A DNA stretch of 64,000 nucleotides from Basidiobolus meristosporus CBS 931.73. Its lineage: Eukaryota; Basidiobolomycota; Basidiobolomycetes; Basidiobolales; Basidiobolaceae. Positions within the stretch are counted from its first letter, which is position 1, and each line of letters starts with the position of its first letter. The stretch lies in NCBI GenBank assembly GCA_002104905.1, contig MCFE01000045.1, forward strand, positions 124,001-188,000, given 5' to 3'. Position numbers and translations under genes: made by a program. The notes beneath the pieces were generated by a model. The model did no database searches. It was given only the letters and a program-made list of their open reading frames with translations, and was not told where the DNA came from. This document shows, piece after piece, positions 2,700-64,000 of this stretch.

Positions 2700-4022
2700 A
2701 TATGCCGCCAAAAAATAAAACAAAGTTGACCAGTTCCCAACCATACCCCACTGCTGACAGCAGCAGAAGAATAGTTGGACAACAGCTTGCTTTGACATTC
2801 AGTGCTGTGTTGGCTGATAGCATAGATATGATGGCCCAGAGAACTCAGGAAAAAGTCCAGAAACAGGATGAGCAGATAATATGTGTGAGCAATCAATATC
2901 CCAGGTAGAGAAAGCAGTATCTTTGCTGCAAAGATGGAACTAAGTAGCTTAATGTCACAGCTAAGAATTCAGCCATTTCCCAATGTAACAGCAGAGGAAC
3001 ACTGTACAGTCTTTGAAGCACAACAACAGTGCCCAAAGATAAAGCCCACAAAAAACCCATCACAGCATGGGAGGGAGACAATGTGGTGTTTAAGCTAAGG
3101 CCTAAAAAAGAAAAGACACTGAAGATCTGTGAAGCTGTTGAGTGCAATAATGAAGAGTGGGCTAATATTCAAGAGGCCATCTGAAGTCTTGCATGCCATC
3201 ACCTTAAGGCTGGCATACCATGGGACCATCTGGAACTCAAGGCCAAGCAGAATGCACTTGACTTGTTCCATGAGCATTATCCTGGATTCCAACAGGAGCC
3301 TGTCACAACTATGGTTGAGAGCCTGAAACAAGTGGAAAAGAAATGTCAGGTTGCCAGAAGAGTGCCAGCAAGGGACAAGCAGGCCAAAACAAATGCGTCA
3401 GAGCAGAATTTATCAAGGAGAAAACATAGTTCATTACAGGAAGCACTCAGACAAAGTAGCACTGAAAGACCTGGCAACAATAAAGGAAAAGGGAAAGGGA
3501 AAAATGTCTACCCAAGCCTGAGACAGGGAGGCATGCAAAAAAACTGCAGTTATTGCCAATTAATGCCGCAAGCCCAGAACAGACTGAATCCCATCATAGC
3601 TAAGAAGAATTACCAACAAGAAAACAGTTGTTTTGCAAGAGTTGGAAGCATGGTTGGTTGAGCTACACTCCAGCAAGGTCAATGAGTTTGCAGAAAAAGG
3701 CAATTTGTCTACCACAGCCTCCACATCCTCCTTTGTTGACAGAGTGGAGATCCCACTGACAGTCAAGGCTATAATGTCAAGAGCTCAAAAGACTATCACA
3801 ATGCCTTCAGTGGAATTTTGGAACGTTAATAGGCACATTGAGAGATTGCAGCACTTCTTCAAGAGCAGTGCTCAAGAAAATGCACTTGAATATTGCAAGG
3901 ATTTATTGCCAAGACTAGCAGATGAGGTGCTAGACCTTGCAGTGCCAGCTGAAGACCAGGATGTGTGGGAACCAGTGAATGAACAATGGCATAAAGCTGT
4001 TGGGTTCCCACCAAAGTTGTGA
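2700..4022 (+). pseudogene. Unrecognised coding-like fragments inside the transposon island
   Basis: Plus-strand open fragments at 2702-2908, 3129-3326, 3263-3661 and 3633-4022 have coding-like composition but change frame repeatedly. The first begins MPPKNKTKLTSSQ; the middle one is rich in Lys, Gln and Ser with a GKGKGK run; the last contains FFKSSAQENALEYCKDLL. I do not recognise the protein. It could be an accessory gene of the neighbouring Tnp2 element or a captured host fragment, now decayed. The last about 310 bp are duplicated downstream at 4511-4823. Confidence 0.4.
3706..4017 (+). repeat. Direct repeat, copy A of a ~310-bp segment
   Basis: This stretch and 4511-4823 are clearly related along their whole length, with scattered substitutions and small indels. 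Both encode the same peptide region, including HFFKSSAQE and EYCKDLL followed by VWEPVNEQWHKA. Copy A lies at the end of a longer coding-like fragment. Confidence 0.8.
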
Positions 4023-4510
4023 AACCAGAGCATTACAACAATAATACTTATTGAGTGGTGGATTTTAATGGAGTTGCTTGTTGAGTGCGGGGTTGGGGTT
4101 AATGTTAGTGCAGGTTATAGGGACTTGTATAGGTCAATATAATTGACAATTGAGCTACAACTGAAGTTTCAATAGAAATAACTCAATTTGTATGCATGAA
4201 AAGTCAGAGAAATGGTTGAGTCAGGAAGTAAGGAGTGTGAAAAAGAGGCAATAGCCAATCAATGCACACAAATGTTGGAGGTAATAGAGTGTCCAGGATC
4301 AGAAAGTGAGCAAATTGGCAGGGAGCCAATCAAAAGCCACTTTTGTATTGTTGTGATAAGAAATTTTGACTAAGTTTTTTGTGAAATCTGGGATGCAATT
4401 ATTTTTCAATGGTCTCTGGATGGTTTCCTGACAGGATCAGTACCTCTTAGTCACGGGACTTTAACTTTGTGACAGCCTTTTGACAGGATCATTACAATAA
4501 TTTTTCATTG

Positions 4511-4823
4511 AGATCTACTACAGCCTCTACATCCTCCATTGTTGACAGGGTGGAGATCCCATTGACAGACAAAGTAACAATGTCAAGAACTCAAAGGTTA
4601 TCACAGTGCCTTCAGTGAAATTTTGGAGCATTAATAGGCACACCAAGAGGTTGCAGCACTTCTTCAAGAGCAGTGCTCAAGAAGATGCACTTGAATATTG
4701 CAAGGATTTATTGCAAAGACTGGCAGATGAGGAGCTAGCCCTTGCAGTGTTGGCTGGAGACCAGGATGTGTGGGAACCAGTGAATGAACAGTGGCATAAA
4801 GCCATTGGGTTCCTGCCAAAGTC
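4511..4823 (+). repeat. Direct repeat, copy B of the ~310-bp segment
   Basis: This is the partner of 3706-4017. Its reading frame stays open to 4914, but the copy is isolated from the upstream part present before copy A, so it is probably a partial duplication. It is followed directly by sequence whose translation (VPRPWKSIDTAF and on to NHIIYLFSQS) also occurs, inverted, at about 930-811. Confidence 0.75.
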
Positions 4824-4946
4824 ACTTCCAATACTCCTCAGAATATTGCAACATTTGGGACCTTCCAAAACCTATTCTACTTGTTTGATGTGCCAAGACC
4901 ATGGAAGAGTATAGATACTGCTTTTACCTTCAATAAGTCCTTGAGT

Positions 4947-5234
4947 GAAAACCATATAATCTACTTGTTCTCCCAATCAATTCCAATATTGCCAAGAATC
5001 TTACAGCAGCTTGGACAACTCACCAAAGTATCATGTTCTGAGTACCTGATATCTTAGTGAAAAAATTCTGAACAGTGGATGTAGCTAGAATACCTCAAGA
5101 ATTGTAGGTAATGCTCTAATTGACTAAGCCAGGGGATTATATAGCTGTAGTCACAAAATTTGCAACAAAACCTGATGTAAGAGTTTTTGGCAAACTTGAA
5201 TTGATTGGAAGAACAAGCAGATTATGAGGTTTTT
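4947..5234. mobile_element. MITE-like element with imperfect ~46-bp terminal inverted repeats
   Basis: Positions 4947-4993 and the reverse complement of 5189-5234 match at most bases; the shared core reads ATAATCTACTTGTTC on the left arm. The arms enclose about 195 bp with no coding potential. The interior (5016-5190) is related in direct orientation to 983-1170. One arm is also found at about 811-870 beside the Tnp2 remnant. A short non-autonomous element mobilised by the neighbouring Tnp2-type transposase is the simplest reading. I did not find a convincing target-site duplication. Confidence 0.55.
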
Positions 5235-55801: not shown

Positions 55802-58434
55802 TTAACTGATAGAGGGCTTCATCAGCTCTCGCTTGCAGTGCTTGTAGAGCTCGGAGAAGCGAATATGTAATAAAATGGTACCAGCAAACAGGTACCACTT
55901 CCAGTCGATATTATATTGCTTGAAACCAACGGTATTAACTATACATTGGGTGAACATAAGATTCCTGCCAACTAAACCAAACATGAATGGGCTTACTTGG
56001 GAAAATCTACAGAAGAACAAGAACCATGGACCAAACAAGAGTTTTGGATCTGAAGGTTCTTTTGAGCCTGGTGGTAGACCATTCTGTGTTGCGCAGACTT
56101 CTATTATTGATGCCTTGCGCGTAAAACAGAAGAATCAGCGTTACCAGCACGGTGCTACGTGCACGATAAAGTCCTTTACAACCGTCGCTATACTCATTAT
56201 TGCAATTCAGTGCTTGCACACCGTCAGCCAACACTATAATGAACGAAGCAACGAAGATTGCTCCTAATTCCAACCCATAGACAAACGTATCTAATAGTGA
56301 TTCAAAAGAAAATATGCTTTTCTTTGGCGATCTCGGGGGCTCGATCATTATAGTCTCGCTGGCCTCTTGAACCCCCCGCTCTGCCGCCGGAGGAGTGTCG
56401 ACAAAAAACGTGAAAAGAATCTGTATAGGACTCGGTGGGAATACTACCATGCATGAAGGCAGAATTTCTATTGCAGAATCAGTTCCAAATTGTAAATTAG
56501 TGCGTACAGTGCACTACTAATCTTGAGTATCCTGTAATGCGTCGCTTCTCTAATGCGCTGATAGTGATCGCTAAGTTATCGTGTGTTAAATGATATCGCG
56601 ATCCATTCTTTACATGCATGCCAACATCGGTCATGGTTGAAACATGCAAGTTCTTTTCATCTTTGACGCAAGATGTGAACTTTTCCAGGATGTCGCTAGA
56701 ATTTTTGATATCTTGGCAAAGAGGTAAAATTGCCTCTGTTGCGCCTTTGGTGAACACAACCACGTTTTTGAATAATTGAGACGACATACTACCGACATCC
56801 TCTTGATTGTCGAGCCGAATAGCTGCTCAAGTAGCTGTTGGGAATTTCCCTCCAAGTCGAGTCCGAATTTAAGAGCAAACATCTTCAGTGCAACCTCAGT
56901 GGAGCTTCCGCTAGCAGCTCATTCACCAGATTGATCTTCACGAACAGTTGCCATATTGCAAAGAGCTGAGCGTTGAATAAATTTCTTAAGGTTGAACCCT
57001 AGTTGTTGATAGGAATCTGATTTGCTCACAATAACATGGCTAATTTCTGGCGACGAGCCCAAGCGATAGACCTCCCCTTCTGGCTTCGAGGTTACTGAGT
57101 AGTAGCCTCATATGAATTTGACCAAAACATTCGGGCTTCGGTTAGAGTGTCAGTCTTCTTAAGTGAGGATAGTGGTTTAATTGCAAGGGTTACACAAAGA
57201 AAATATACGTTATCTGAACAGATGTTGGTTACTCCACCTAGGGTCTCCAGTGAGTTTAGTTTTCGTACAATAGCTTTCTTCTCAATCATCTCCTTGCCAC
57301 CAAGGACAAAAATTACAGTTAACATAGTGGTTATTCTAGCCGGTACAGCACATAAACCAGCAGTCATTGCGTACATCCGGACATCGTAGCTGATTGCCAT
57401 TGAACATTAGTGCAACCCTATTGACCCGTTAGAGAAATAAGTAACTTACGTAATATTGAATTTGTTAATTCCCATCACAATAATTGCAGCAATCACCGCG
57501 CTGAGTAGCAAAAACAAGGCCATAAGGTCCAAACTACAAAATCAACTTATTTAGCAATGGTTACTATTGAGGGATCCAGTATGCCCTACCTCTTCTGTAA
57601 GCGAGTTTGACCATGGTGCTAGCCTGTGTGATTGTTTTAGCAATCTTACCAACCTCAGTATTCATCCCAGTGGCTATTACTATGCCATTGGTCCGGCCTT
57701 TGCAGATGATGGTCGAGGAATATGCTATATTGCAACTATCTCCTATTGGTAATATAGTTTCTTTACACGGAACACCTAGCCTTCGGGAGACTTGGTTAGC
57801 CCGCTCATCAAATCTCCCTCTTAATATAAGTCTTAACCAACCTTCTGCCAACGTTCTCGGATTCACCAGAAAGAAGTGCTTCATCCACCTCAAAGTTGGA
57901 CCCATCAAATAATAGAATATTAGCGGCAATTGCATCACCCTCTTGAATCAATAGAATGCCCCCTGGGACCAATTCCCGACCTATTATTATCAGTTCTTTG
58001 CCGTCTCGGATGACACTAGTTGTGGGTGAGGCCATACTATGGAGCACCTTCATTGTTTGCTCTACTTGATACATTTGATGAACTTCTAGAAACGAATTCA
58101 GAAGAGTAATCGCAAGGACTAGGGAGCCTAATATGCAATCTTTCTGTACAAAAGACAAAATCTACAAATGCAGTTAGAAGACATCACAGTCTGATTTGAT
58201 ATCAATTTTTTACACTGTTACAGCGAGAAAGATATAGTTGATGGCATGTTTGAGTTGGTGTGATAGAAGGATATGCCACTTAGTATCACTAGCTCCGTCC
58301 AACTCATTGAGGCCGTATTGTTGCCATTTCTTGTGCATCTCTGAGCTACTTAACCCTGTCTCGATATCTGTATAGAGCATTTGAATCACCGTGTTGATAT
58401 TTAGTGAATGACATATTTCTGTTTTCGATGTCAT
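55802..58434 (-). pseudogene. Broken ENA-type (P-type IID) cation ATPase
   Basis: Minus-strand fragments follow the order of fungal Na+/K+-exporting P-type ATPases. They are an N-terminal cation-ATPase region (58434-58210), the actuator with EALLSGESE (about 57830), NIAYSSTIICKGRTNGIVIA with TGMNTEVGKIA, and then IVRKLNSLETLGGVTNICSD. The phosphorylation site should read DKTGTLT, but here an intron-like stretch and substitutions leave D-N-T-D-T-L-T at best. An in-frame TGA near 56930 falls where the family has Trp, and a frameshift lies near 56797 after STIKRMS. The P-domain with the TGDGVNDSP motif and helix M5 is missing between about 56500 and 56450. The C-terminal membrane part (PPSPIQILF onwards to MKPSIS) remains. 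It cannot make a working pump. Confidence 0.82.
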
Positions 58435-60705: not shown

Positions 60706-61611
60706 TTATAATCGTTTGGCAATAACGATGGAATTCACCACTTCATTATATGGATGAACGACAAGGACAGGCTCGAAACCTGTCAACATCTCTGTTTCAA
60801 TTTCCGGGTACAATAGGGTCCTGAGGCTGTGAGCACTTCGAAGAACCAAGTAAGAGCCGGGTCTCATGGCTCTCCATAGCTGTTTGGTGATTTCTTGTTT
60901 TTCGGCTTGAGCAAGTCCTACCAGTGCAGCCAGATATACAATATCATGACACTTCAGGTCTTGTATCTTACCAACATCCTGATGATGAAAGATCAGGTTG
61001 CTTTGGACATCTGGCAATTGTTCTACAAGCGCCGCACTTACGGTCAGCGCCTCCAAATCAATATCATAGTTATCAATGACGAAGGAAGTCACCTCCGAGC
61101 TTCCAATCTGGGTCAATAGTTCTCTTGCCAAACAAATCGAAGTTAACGGAAGTGGTCCCGAGCCCAAAAACGCAATCTTTTCGGGAGATTGATGTAAAAC
61201 GGAACGGATGGCATTGAGTTCCATCTTCGCCAGGGAAACATAATTTTGATAATACGGAAAACGCAGTAGCTCCAACGCGGCTTCTTCGGGCTTCTTGACA
61301 ATGTGGGCAGCCCATGTTGCCTCCAACCGGAACTCACCGATGGCACAGAGCTGTCGAAAGTGCTCAGTAATCGCTATGATCTGCCTATCACGGAGAATGG
61401 CCTCCAGATCATAGCGCGGTAGTGTTTTTATGCAAATACTAACCAGCTCACTGAAGGCGGCGTTAATTTCGGGGCAAGGATCCAAAGCGGATGCTTTGGC
61501 CAATGTTTGATATATGCTGTAAATCCGATTCCTGGTTTCCTTTGCTCTTACGAATCCGTTTTGTGCACAAAAATCTGAGGGCTCAGTAGGAACAATGGAG
61601 TGGCTTAGCAT
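60706..61611 (-). CDS. Nicotianamine synthase
   Basis: The enzyme joins three aminocarboxypropyl units from S-adenosylmethionine to make nicotianamine, a chelator of Zn, Fe, Cu and Ni. The gene is intronless, with 301 residues, close to the plant length of about 320. Family marks are clear in order. AFLGSGPLPLTS (147-158) and DNYDIDLEAL (180-189) form the SAM site. LIFHHQDVG (206-214), DIVYLAALVG (223-232) and LVLRSAHSLRTLLYPE (255-270) follow. The N-terminal helical part has FSELVSICIKTLP. The start at 61611 (MLSHSIVPTE) is the only good ATG. It is divergent from a ZIF-like transporter and shares its promoter. Lack of introns in an intron-rich neighbourhood could mean a past retrocopy or transfer, but this is only a hint. 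Confidence 0.9.
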   Translation of the reverse strand: MLSHSIVPTEPSDFCAQNGFVRAKETRNRIYSIYQTLAKASALDPCPEINAAFSELVSICIKTLPRYDLEAILRDRQIIAITEHFRQLCAIGEFRLEATWAAHIVKKPEEAALELLRFPYYQNYVSLAKMELNAIRSVLHQSPEKIAFLGSGPLPLTSICLARELLTQIGSSEVTSFVIDNYDIDLEALTVSAALVEQLPDVQSNLIFHHQDVGKIQDLKCHDIVYLAALVGLAQAEKQEITKQLWRAMRPGSYLVLRSAHSLRTLLYPEIETEMLTGFEPVLVVHPYNEVVNSIVIAKRL

Positions 61612-61921
61612 GTCGAGAGAAGATTGGATAGTATGTAATCTGTGGGCATATCGAGTAGAAGATAGCCTTTATATACTGCAAAAAATGTTATGGCAAAGCT
61701 CTGCTGCATCTTTGACAATCAAATGGGGTTATTCAACGTAGAAACCCCATTACTTCTCTTGCTGCACCATCTACCTCCCACCAATATGACTAATTCTTGT
61801 TATCCGAGTCTTGGCCAATAATTTTGAACATGGTTTGAGTACCCTATAGGGCATCAAACTAGACTAGTTTTGCACAACAAACACGATGATGACCGATAAG
61901 GTGCTCAGATAACAGTCGCAC

Positions 61922-61943
61922 TCTAACCTCTAGGGTACGCATC
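61922..61943 (+). promoter_or_regulatory. Promoter repeat copy 1
   Basis: Core ACCTCTAGGGT at 61926-61936 followed by ACGCATC. It lies 21 bp after the GATAAG at 61895-61900 and near a second GATAA at 61908-61912. Confidence 0.6.
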
Positions 61944-62066
61944 GAATCAAATGCTCCACAAAGTACCACAATGGTGGGATCGCCCGTATATTATCTAACT
62001 ATGGCCAACGTTACCTGAGTCATAATGTCATTATCCAAGAGATTGATGGCTGATAAGCTTAATCTT

Positions 62067-62088
62067 TCTAACCTCCAGGGTACGCATC
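62067..62088 (+). promoter_or_regulatory. Promoter repeat copy 2
   Basis: Core ACCTCCAGGGT at 62071-62081 followed by ACGCATC. It lies 9 bp after GATAAG (62052-62057) and about 140 bp before the transporter ATG. Confidence 0.6.
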
Positions 62089-62229
62089 AACTTTAACTCA
62101 ACCAAAGCCCCAGGAAATATTGCAACACAACAACCCCAGAATGTTGATGCTTCCGCAGTCCCTCATTTTGTTCACAAGTATTTAAGCCGTATTATTGAAG
62201 GATTTCCCAGGGCTTAAACCACCGTCAAT

Positions 62230-63934
62230 ATGTCACCCGAGAGAGATGATAGCATGAAGATAACGCCGCTCCCTACAAGACAACTGATTGTATTGTGCTT
62301 GGTAAGGCTTGCCGAACCAATCAACTATACTATTCTTTTTCCATTCATGTATAGGGTAAGTTGCATACTTGTGCCCATTCGGACTACTTTTCTAACCCTC
62401 GTAATGGATCAGATGGTTAAGTGGATGAAGGTAGGCGAAAGCGAGGAGGATGTAAGCTCATATGCGGGCCTGATAGCGGCGTCGTTTGCGATTGCCCAGT
62501 TTTTCAGTGGTACATGGGTGGTCTCTGACTCAGATATGTGCGGGCGGTGCTAACCTTGTGCTAAATATATTCAGGTATTCCTTGGGGCTGGTTGTCGGAT
62601 CGCATCGGAAGAAAGCCCGTGATTCTGATGGGCCTACTAGGAAGTACAGTTGGAATCATAATGTTTGGTTTAAGTCAGAGTTTTGCCATGGCTATAATCA
62701 GTCGCTCTTTGGCCGGGATACTCAACGGGAATATTGGTGTCATCAAATCATTGCTAGCCGAGATTACTGATAAATCTAATAGAGCGAAAGCTTTTTCATT
62801 GCTCCCACTAGTCTGGGGAGTGGGAAGTGTAGTTGGTCCCCTGCTAGGTGGTCTATTGTCAGAGCCAGCTACTCAATATCCGTCGGTATTCGGTAACAAT
62901 TCTGTGATGATCAAGTTTCCTTATCTTTTGCCTTGCTTGATTGGTTCCTGCATTAGCCTGGCAGGGTCCATCTTCGGTTTCTTTTTCCTAGAAGAAACAT
63001 TGAAAAGTAAAGTACAAGAGAAGAACCAAAAGAATGCGCAAGCAGGACCACATGCTTCCCAGGAAAAATCCTCACAGACAACTGGCGAATGTGAAAAAGG
63101 CTCAGAAATCATTGAGGTGGCAAATGCGAAATTGGATACTCACACCCCTGAATCTAAGCCATCGCTCAGATCCTCGCTTACCAAGCCTGTACATATAGTG
63201 GTGCTCTCGTATGTACTATTTTCCCTTCAAAATGTTACATGGGACGAGCTATACAACCTTTGGACTGCTGCTCCCATTGAACACTATGGGCTTGGATTAA
63301 GCCAGTCGAAGATCAGTATCACATTAGCTATAGTGGGCATTTTAACGCCAGTGGTACAGCTTATGATTTACCCACCGCTTCAGCGACGTTTTGGGGATCT
63401 ATCCTGTTACCGAGTTGTGCTATTTGTGTACATCCCATTTTATATATTGCAACCTTTTGTAGCGGATCTGGCTCGGCATGGTGAGCAGTTTAGAGACCAT
63501 AACACAAGTACTTACAGACTTGTCCAAGTGGGTGTCTGGGCAGGGGTTGGGCTCTGCCTTATTACCAAAGTAATTTGCTCACCCATCTGCTTTACTGCTA
63601 CATCGATATTGCTTACAGATGTCTGTGAGAATAACGAGGTTTTAGGAACAGTGAATGGGTAAATAGTCCTACTAATCATTTACACCTGAATTTACACCTG
63701 AATATATATATCCTGACAACTTATTGTAGATACTCGCAAGCCGTGGTTTCGCTTACGAGAGCGGCTGGGCCAGCCATGGGTGGCGCTTTACTTACCCTGT
63801 CAATCAAGTCTTCTCTACCCTTTCCATTAAATAGTCATTTAGTTTGGAATGTATTATCAGTCATTGCTATTATTACTTGGATTGAATCATTCTGGGTAAA
63901 GTCAGTTTTGAGTAAGAAGGATAATTCACATTGA
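62230..63934 (+). CDS. MFS transporter of the ZIF1/ZIFL (zinc-induced facilitator-like) type
   Basis: A multi-pass major facilitator of about 500 residues in four exons; introns fall at about 62356-62411 (phase 0), 62512-62575 (phase 1) and 63661-63729 (phase 2). The N-terminus PLPTRQLIVLCLVRLAEPIN is the ZIFL signature opening of the first helix. Loop 2-3 has GWLSDRIGRKPV, the MFS G-x-x-x-D-R-x-G-R-K motif; LLPLVWGVGSVVGPLLGG is the fifth helix antiporter-type motif. A hydrophilic central loop of about 80 residues separates six plus six helices. In Arabidopsis ZIF1 moves nicotianamine into the vacuole and gives zinc tolerance. The synthase next door makes a nicotianamine or metal-complex substrate likely here. 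The membrane location cannot be read from sequence. Confidence 0.85.
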
Positions 63935-64000
63935 AATAAAACCCACGTATTAAGAGACATAATTTGCACTGAAATATGTTACACGGAGCATAAAATGAGA
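63935..64000. other. 3' flank of the MFS gene, window end
   Basis: 66 bp after the stop codon, AT-rich; no gene. Confidence 0.5.

Follow-up and report, generated by a model that had tools for sequence, protein, structure and literature searches.

Strategy II iron uptake in grasses relies on nicotianamine synthase (NAS), TOM1/ZIFL efflux and YS1 uptake, the same three families as at the locus described here, which act in the order of synthesis, secretion and re-import; it differs in that what is secreted is not nicotianamine but the mugineic acids made from it, and to our knowledge its genes do not lie in one cluster. Nor do we know of any adjacency between the ZIF1 and NAS genes of Arabidopsis, or of an OPT partner at that locus. 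According to the accessible text of PMC10341464, Arabidopsis ZIF1 is likewise a ZIFL transporter that acts on nicotianamine, but it is vacuolar. The bacterial opine metallophore clusters (staphylopine cnt, bacillopaline and pseudopaline) also combine a NAS-like enzyme with an efflux protein, which belongs to the MFS in some of them, and an importer (PMC7438024, accessible text); the pairing of NAS-like enzymes with MFS exporters is thus already on record for bacteria. In these clusters, however, the NAS-like enzyme adds aminobutyrate to histidine, an opine dehydrogenase finishes the product, and the importers are described as ABC permeases, some with a TonB-dependent protein (PMC7438024), whereas the Basidiobolus locus encodes a eukaryotic NAS, a ZIFL-type MFS transporter and an OPT/YSL-type importer, with no adjacent opine dehydrogenase of the CntM type.

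Among fungal systems, NcNAS of Neurospora crassa, a class III NAS, is likewise a core-NAS without the inhibitory C-terminus, and fungal NAS is active in vitro; unlike at the present locus, no transporter neighbours are described for this class in the accessible text (PMC10248798). The copper-responsive cluster of Pseudogymnoascus destructans (VC83_01834 to VC83_01838) also contains an MFS transporter and an enzyme that uses S-adenosylmethionine (SAM), and has been likened to metallophore genes, but copper is the metal it responds to, it also encodes an opine dehydrogenase, a metalloreductase and a P450, and the accessible text mentions no OPT gene (PMC12113139). The remark in the first-pass annotation that no fungal gene pair of this kind had been described holds narrowly within the literature searched, although this cluster with its MFS, opine dehydrogenase and SAM enzyme is already published.

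The window, that is, the whole 64,000-nucleotide stretch of Basidiobolus meristosporus CBS 931.73 DNA analysed here, contains a divergent pair of NAS and MFS genes (Table 1), and the spliced MFS model is identical to the deposited protein P0121 of this strain. The existence of the pair is confirmed, and the spacer between the two genes measures 618 bp, as annotated for their common promoter. The annotation of a two-gene unit is partly supported: the pair recurs, but the unit comprises three genes, an OPT/YSL-type gene lying directly after the MFS gene at both NAS loci of B. meristosporus, on the contigs designated C702, which includes the window, and C425. Likewise, the NAS and MFS genes lie where they had been placed, but the interval given for them leaves out the OPT gene, which starts 301 bp past the MFS gene and 236 bp past the window edge.

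Table 1. Features of the three-gene locus, in window positions
Feature	Position	Strand	Description
NAS gene	60706..61611	-	Nicotianamine synthase, core-NAS type, 301 aa, intronless, without the plant C-terminal extension
NAS/MFS shared promoter region	61612..62229		618 bp, between the divergent genes
Palindrome 1	61892..61902		ACC-N5-GGT, ACCGATAAGGT
Palindrome 2	61926..61936		ACC-N5-GGT, ACCTCTAGGGT, within a 21-bp direct repeat
Palindrome 3	61965..61975		ACC-N5-GGT, ACCACAATGGT
Palindrome 4	62071..62081		ACC-N5-GGT, ACCTCCAGGGT, within copy 2 of the 21-bp direct repeat
MFS gene	62230..63934	+	ZIFL-type MFS transporter, 503 aa, 4 exons; introns 62356-62412, 62510-62574 and 63659-63729
MFS-OPT spacer, first part	63935..64000	+	First part of the 301-bp spacer
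OPT gene	from 64236 (contig C702:188236-190334, outside the window)	+	OPT/YSL-type transporter, 657 aa, 3 exons

The description of the NAS gene as intact is borne out by its single 301-aa frame without interruption, by a match to PF03059 of 236 bits (cut-off 27.1) that covers profile positions 10-271 of 276, and by retention of the AtNAS1 catalytic residues that were tested. In a 22-sequence alignment, which included two plant NAS but not AtNAS1 itself, the equivalents of AtNAS1 E73, E77 and Y106 are E93, E97 and Y124; E77 and Y106 are catalytic and E73 is the residue found in nicotianamine producers, and deletion of the VGMD motif inactivates AtNAS1, according to the accessible text of PMC10248798. 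This motif reads VGLA in the Basidiobolus enzyme, a point against the cluster proposed below; among the 12 fungal NAS rows outside Basidiobolus it occurs only in Powellomyces, the other 11 being without it, and the two plant rows read VGMD and VGMS. Family membership and residues together support the assignment of the predicted protein as a true nicotianamine synthase. In a tree of 39 hand-picked rows, the four Basidiobolus NAS form a single clade (100/100) adjoining four of the five chytrid NAS (98/94) and apart from plants, while the fifth chytrid sequence, that of Polychytrium, sits on a very long branch among bacteria. A plant origin of the fungal NAS is rejected on the position of the Basidiobolus clade in this tree.

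P0121 matches plant ZIF1 (28%, 190 bits) and plant ZIFL (30%, 186 bits) in alignments of nearly whole length, and a profile made from plant ZIFL proteins only gives it 260 bits, whereas five other MFS proteins, an outgroup of distant sequences, two of them bacterial, that are joined by long branches and include no named fungal DHA1 drug-efflux reference, score 18-27 bits. The ZIF1/ZIFL-type assignment in the first-pass annotation is upheld by these matches. The PDB matches of P0121 (MFSD10, 53 bits; NorA, 48 bits) are confined to its N-terminal half, and its NCBIfam matches are all below the cut-offs among the 25 listed of 61. It carries the MFS signature G-x3-D-[RK]-x-G-R-[RK] and the antiporter signature S-x8-G-x3-GP-x2-GG, both as defined for ZIFL proteins in PMC8747725. 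The former is present in 32 of the 33 fungal and plant ZIFL-type rows and the latter in 22, the NAS-linked B. ranarum protein 001641 being without it; neither is found in any of the five other MFS rows. With both signatures present and the profile scores so different, an identity as an ordinary drug-efflux MFS, which the first-pass annotation had named as a refuting outcome, is not supported, and P0121 did not fall with the five distant proteins that stood for other MFS families. The N-terminal Cys motif CPGC, which we take to be a mark of plant ZIFL, is present in both plant rows and absent from P0121 and eight other fungal rows; therefore, the transporter is designated fungal ZIFL-type rather than plant ZIF1 proper.

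The product of the third gene scores 277 bits with PF03169, and its sole PDB match is 7wsr, named as an iron-phytosiderophore transporter (residues 38-644, E 5.3e-23) and presumably barley YS1. These matches point to the yellow-stripe half of the OPT family for the predicted protein. The OPT sequence on contig C394, taken as two joined exon frames, gave no match in the PDB with a threshold as loose as E 10 and, by our reading of its motifs, would be of the peptide type.

A second divergent NAS-MFS pair is found in B. meristosporus at C425, where the spliced MFS product is P0122, and the pair is present at two places in B. ranarum, as judged from consecutive locus tags and contigs of equal length; the same arrangement at C425 and at the two B. 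ranarum places indicates more than chance. Between C702 and C425, similarity extends across all three genes, in the same order NAS-MFS-OPT, and the NAS-to-MFS stretch gives 42 tblastx rows, while neither tblastx nor blastn gives any row at E 1e-3 for the flanks compared (left, 10.7 kb vs 4.7 kb; right, 8.6 kb vs 1.4 kb). Divergence at codon positions 1, 2 and 3 is 0.22, 0.14 and 0.56 for NAS, 0.19, 0.09 and 0.58 for MFS, and 0.17, 0.09 and 0.56 for OPT, which is the pattern of purifying selection; this measure was used because dS was saturated for NAS and MFS, that of OPT being finite (2.97 or 1.69, depending on the method). OPT proteins form a broad family with varied substrates, as the TIGR00728 superfamily match of the third protein also reflects, and the three genes might be neighbours without a common function, the OPT importing peptides or another substrate and the adjacency arising by chance or from chromatin. 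We regard this as highly improbable: the genes stay together at two loci despite a third-position divergence of approximately 56% and flanks with nothing detectable in common, and few contigs of the genome bear PF03169 matches (at least seven, one of the matches being a near-copy of the C702 gene).

Outside Basidiobolus, no contig common to NAS and MFS was seen by eye among the matches listed (120 of 192 and 120 of 1629), which is a weak test of linkage. Of 183 confirmed bacterial NAS loci, 80 were kept, and a ZIFL-type profile, which could miss other MFS types, found an MFS frame in 6 of these 80, with weak scores of 18-35 bits; these few and weak matches do not indicate a bacterial source of the NAS-MFS pair.

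The arrangement suggests, with moderate confidence, a three-gene nicotianamine metallophore cluster for synthesis, export and re-uptake. For its product, transport direction, membrane, metal and regulation we infer a scheme in which NAS would join three SAM units into nicotianamine, and the ZIFL-type MFS would remove this from the cytosol by proton exchange, with the plasma membrane as the most likely site. The secreted nicotianamine would bind Zn(II), possibly also Fe, Cu or Ni, and the OPT/YSL-type transporter would return the metal-nicotianamine complex into the cell; zinc scarcity would probably raise expression through a Zap1/ZafA-like factor acting on the ACC-N5-GGT palindromes. Nicotianamine might instead be an intermediate that is finished by an enzyme encoded elsewhere, comparable to staphylopine or mugineic acid, as suggested by bacterial metallophore clusters in which an opine dehydrogenase accompanies the NAS-like enzyme (PMC7438024), by the P. 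destructans cluster with its opine dehydrogenase and P450 (PMC12113139), and by the 7wsr match of the OPT protein. However, no other biosynthetic gene lies between NAS, MFS and OPT at C702 or C425, and we consider a further-modified metallophore improbable. An opine-type product in particular was rejected, the PF10100 opine dehydrogenase profile having 0 matches in the genome, in a search without a positive control, and neither locus having such a dehydrogenase as one of its three genes.

The NAS/MFS promoter contains four ACC-N5-GGT palindromes where 0.11 are expected, and none of 20000 first-order Markov resamples has as many as four, the motif having been noticed first and the statistics applied afterwards. 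A tight triple (gaps of at most 31) occurs at two places in the 89-Mb genome, one of them this promoter, as opposed to 17 places for a backward-read control pattern. Each of the four palindromes has 2-3 mismatches to the yeast ZRE consensus, ACCTTNAAGGT; the first degenerate form used for them was what we took to be the element, ACCYYNARGGT, and both palindromes in the repeat copies are off by one position from the published form ACCYKNRRKGT. Five such palindromes lie upstream of one ZIP gene, but a cluster is present in only 1 of 16 ZIP upstream stretches, 12 of which have at most one site; none occurs in the C425 promoter, the C834 orphan region or either MFS-OPT spacer (C702, C425). The palindromes hint that the cluster may be under zinc-starvation control.

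An alternative is intracellular handling or detoxification, in which the MFS would fill the vacuole with nicotianamine as Arabidopsis ZIF1 does, trapping excess zinc, and the OPT would release metal-nicotianamine again. Plant ZIFL proteins are located at the tonoplast or the plasma membrane (PMC8747725), ZIF1 itself being a tonoplast nicotianamine transporter (PMC10341464), and the cluster MFS is ZIFL-type; however, the palindromes resemble an element of starvation, not of excess, and also lie upstream of a gene of the zinc importer type, and scavenging is the simpler fit for an OPT/YSL importer. We judge the vacuolar scheme unlikely, and because the OPT/YSL-type gene is present at both loci, scavenging by export and re-uptake is favoured over vacuolar sequestration.

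B. meristosporus is an early-diverging fungus that dwells in the amphibian gut. For such an organism the locus could represent a self-contained eukaryotic nicotianamine metallophore cluster that is induced by zinc starvation and provides a zincophore, a reading which we put forward tentatively as a possibility somewhat short of probable. Small-molecule metal scavenging of this kind is known from bacteria and grasses; for fungal nicotianamine, the enzyme is known, but we are aware of no worked-out physiological system, and the candidate exporter and importer beside NAS indicate what this compound may be for and make that testable. If the proposal is correct, the clustering of metallophore synthesis with transport, as known in bacteria, would extend to an early-diverging fungus, ZIFL and YSL-type proteins outside plants would gain a candidate ligand, and the plant set of NAS, ZIF/TOM and YSL would be found packed as a single fungal cluster. 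Because NAS transfers from microbes to plants have been published, the cluster may also serve as a model for the assembly of NAS/ZIF/YSL sets.

The first-pass annotation had described an intact nicotianamine synthase gene (NAS) and a divergent ZIF-like transporter gene (MFS) across 618 bp, and this arrangement proved right: NAS is an uninterrupted frame, the two starts lie 618 bp apart, and the spliced MFS product is identical to the deposited B. meristosporus CBS 931.73 protein P0121 (assembly of 89.0 Mb in 1311 contigs). As a separate observation, frames left of NAS at 56010-58161 of the window (minus strand) match segments of a cation P-type ATPase (PF00122, PF00689). The accompanying reading of the pair as a chelator module was right in kind but incomplete, since the cluster comprises three genes instead of the proposed two and is kept at two loci, on the contig of the window (C702, of which the window is 124001-188000) and on a second contig of the same genome (C425); at both, an OPT/YSL-type gene (OPT) lies directly 3′ of MFS.

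Features of the two NAS-MFS-OPT loci of B. meristosporus
Contig	Gene	Coordinates	Strand	Remarks
C702	NAS	60706-61611 (window)	minus	uninterrupted, 301 aa
C702	MFS	62230-63934 (window)	plus	four exons, 503 aa
C702	OPT	C702:188236-190334		301 bp past MFS, 236 bp outside window edge
C425	NAS	82684-83511 (matched)	minus	
C425	MFS	84141-85836	plus	
C425	OPT			starts 378 bp past C425 MFS

Similarity between C702 and C425 was detected in NAS, MFS and OPT (42 tblastx rows over the stretch from NAS to MFS), and no tblastx or blastn row at E 1e-3 was obtained in the flanks (10.7 vs 4.7 kb left of NAS; 8.6 vs 1.4 kb right of OPT). Divergence at codon positions 1, 2 and 3 is 0.22, 0.14 and 0.56 in NAS, 0.19, 0.09 and 0.58 in MFS, and 0.17, 0.09 and 0.56 in OPT; this pattern is that of purifying selection on the three genes while their surroundings diverged. 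The MFS intron sites correspond between the copies, and the C425 NAS-MFS spacer is 551 bp. Two NAS matches occur in the genome, each of them head to head with a ZIFL-type MFS. In B. ranarum, NAS K7432_004752 and MFS K7432_004751 are both located on a 23,209-base contig, and NAS K7432_001642 and MFS K7432_001641 on a 40,173-base contig; given these consecutive tags and both B. meristosporus loci, all four Basidiobolus NAS genes seen therefore have an adjoining MFS, in B. ranarum as judged from locus tags alone. The third ZIFL-type protein of B. meristosporus, P0125, is encoded on contig C834 (about 3600-5215 in stretch L051, C834:46000-53000) and groups with B. ranarum K7432_001641 (99/97) in a 38-row tree (33 ZIFL-type rows and five others). 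In profile searches, in which OPT counts are lower bounds, neither a NAS match nor an OPT match of the genome falls on C834, which, with the grouping of P0125, suggests that B. meristosporus lost the NAS of one ancestral pair.

The NAS protein scores 236 bits against PF03059 (cut-off 27.1). A total of 192 proteins were found at E ≤ 0.001. Among the 120 matches listed, a B. ranarum protein is closest (76%), ahead of the other B. meristosporus copy (73%) and the other B. ranarum copy (64%); chytrid and Pezizomycete proteins follow (43-48%). A tree built on 39 hand-picked rows places the four Basidiobolus proteins in one clade (100/100), which adjoins four of five chytrid NAS (98/94), apart from plants. 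The essential AtNAS1 residues E73, E77 and Y106 (PMC10248798) are all kept in the alignment, as E93, E97 and Y124. Deletion of the VGMD motif inactivates AtNAS1 (PMC10248798); VGLA occupies this position in NAS, and 11 of 12 other fungal rows are also non-VGMD. NAS stops at the end of the core domain, as do active fungal and moss enzymes described in the same paper (PMC10248798). Nicotianamine is, on family knowledge, a well-supported predicted product. Elsewhere in the family, metagenomic NAS proteins P0023 and P0041 (438-448 aa) carry an extra acetyltransferase (GNAT) domain by precomputed Pfam. In Pyxidicoccus fallax (L053 4757-9410) and Jiangella endophytica (L056 5935-8069), NAS is followed by an ATP-grasp L-amino-acid-ligase-like gene, with an MFS gene 3′ of the latter in P. 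fallax; a nicotianamine-amide metallophore is a possible product of these bacterial genes.

Assignment of the transporter to the ZIF1/ZIFL type was upheld. P0121 can be aligned along almost its full length with Camelina ZIF1 (28%, 190 bits) and Morella ZIFL (30%, 186 bits), sharing a stretch past the antiporter signature (SEPATQYPSVF vs AQPADKYPTIF). On a profile built on 60 of 103 plant ZIFL rows it scores 260 bits, whereas two bacterial MFS proteins and three further MFS fragments of B. meristosporus score 18-27 bits. It has both ZIFL signatures given in PMC8747725, but the CPGC motif of the plant N-terminus was not found in it; because of these features, P0121 is classed by sequence as a fungal ZIFL-type protein and not plant ZIF1 itself. 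In the 38-row tree, whose long outgroup branches leave plants vs fungi unrooted, the four NAS-linked MFS proteins and the C834 orphan form a clade (100/100).

The PF03169 search of the genome returned at least 17 match rows on at least seven contigs. The C702 OPT protein (OPT_sfam, 211 bits; PF03169, 277 bits) is 79% identical to that of C425, and at E ≤ 1 the sole PDB entry that it matches is 7wsr, an iron-phytosiderophore transporter (E 5.3e-23 over residues 38-644) that we take to be barley YS1. An unlinked OPT on contig C502 (46-47% identical) also matches 7wsr, and one on C394 (two joined exon frames), which reads as peptide-type, has zero PDB matches at E ≤ 10, so that within this small test the 7wsr match does separate the two halves of the OPT family. 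A near-identical copy of C702 OPT with its downstream DNA starts at the end of contig C32 (C32:1 onward, stretches L144 and L140, against L024 2256-5569; 99.96% over 2.2 kb, 99.2% over 3.3 kb); either C32 is allelic or the gene was duplicated very recently. Shortly 3′ of C702 OPT, a 570-aa frame (L024 5048-6760, minus strand) resembles by eye a LINE-type reverse transcriptase.

The shared promoter contains four ACC-N5-GGT palindromes, a motif chosen after looking at this promoter; two of the four are copies inside a direct repeat. The whole 64-kb window has 17 (shuffle mean, 10.7 per window), and within 618 bp 0.11 are expected, four being reached in 0 of 20,000 first-order resamples. In the 89-Mb genome, triples with gaps of ≤31 bases were found twice, in a scan that passes over simple repeats and very common words: in the shared promoter and at C845:14783, which by eye falls where an exon of an unrelated gene ends; a backward control pattern gave 17 in the same scan. 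Among 16 upstream stretches of ZIP genes (of 23 match rows), 12 have at most one site, and the one on contig C784 alone is clustered, with five palindromes within 350 bp (gene product PF02535 ZIP, 169 bits). The zinc-responsive element of yeast is ACCTTNAAGGT (PMC2535606), and each of the four palindromes is two or three positions off this yeast consensus. The C425 promoter has zero ACC-N5-GGT palindromes. The palindromes are a lead to zinc control, not evidence of it.

In the open-licence literature, no paper was found that joins Basidiobolus and nicotianamine, though subscription papers may exist, and the titles and abstracts surveyed described no fungal NAS flanked by ZIFL and OPT genes; the nearest published system is a cluster of P. 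destructans that responds to copper (PMC12113139). A 2025 study of NAS transfer to plants makes no mention of Basidiobolus in its main text (PMC12454661). Siderophore activity was shown in strain CBS 931.73 and tied to NRPS siderophore genes (PMC7466969); nicotianamine may contribute to the signal in assays of this type. Systems in which the synthesis and transport of a metallophore are clustered are known, and the NAS-MFS-OPT set parallels both bacterial metallophore clusters (PMC7438024) and the grass pathway. Because of these parallels, the combination of three families and their retention as a unit, the most likely reading by analogy is that NAS would make nicotianamine, the ZIFL-type antiporter would export it and the YS-type OPT protein would recover it as a metal complex; here we infer export over vacuolar loading, and re-import of metal-nicotianamine.
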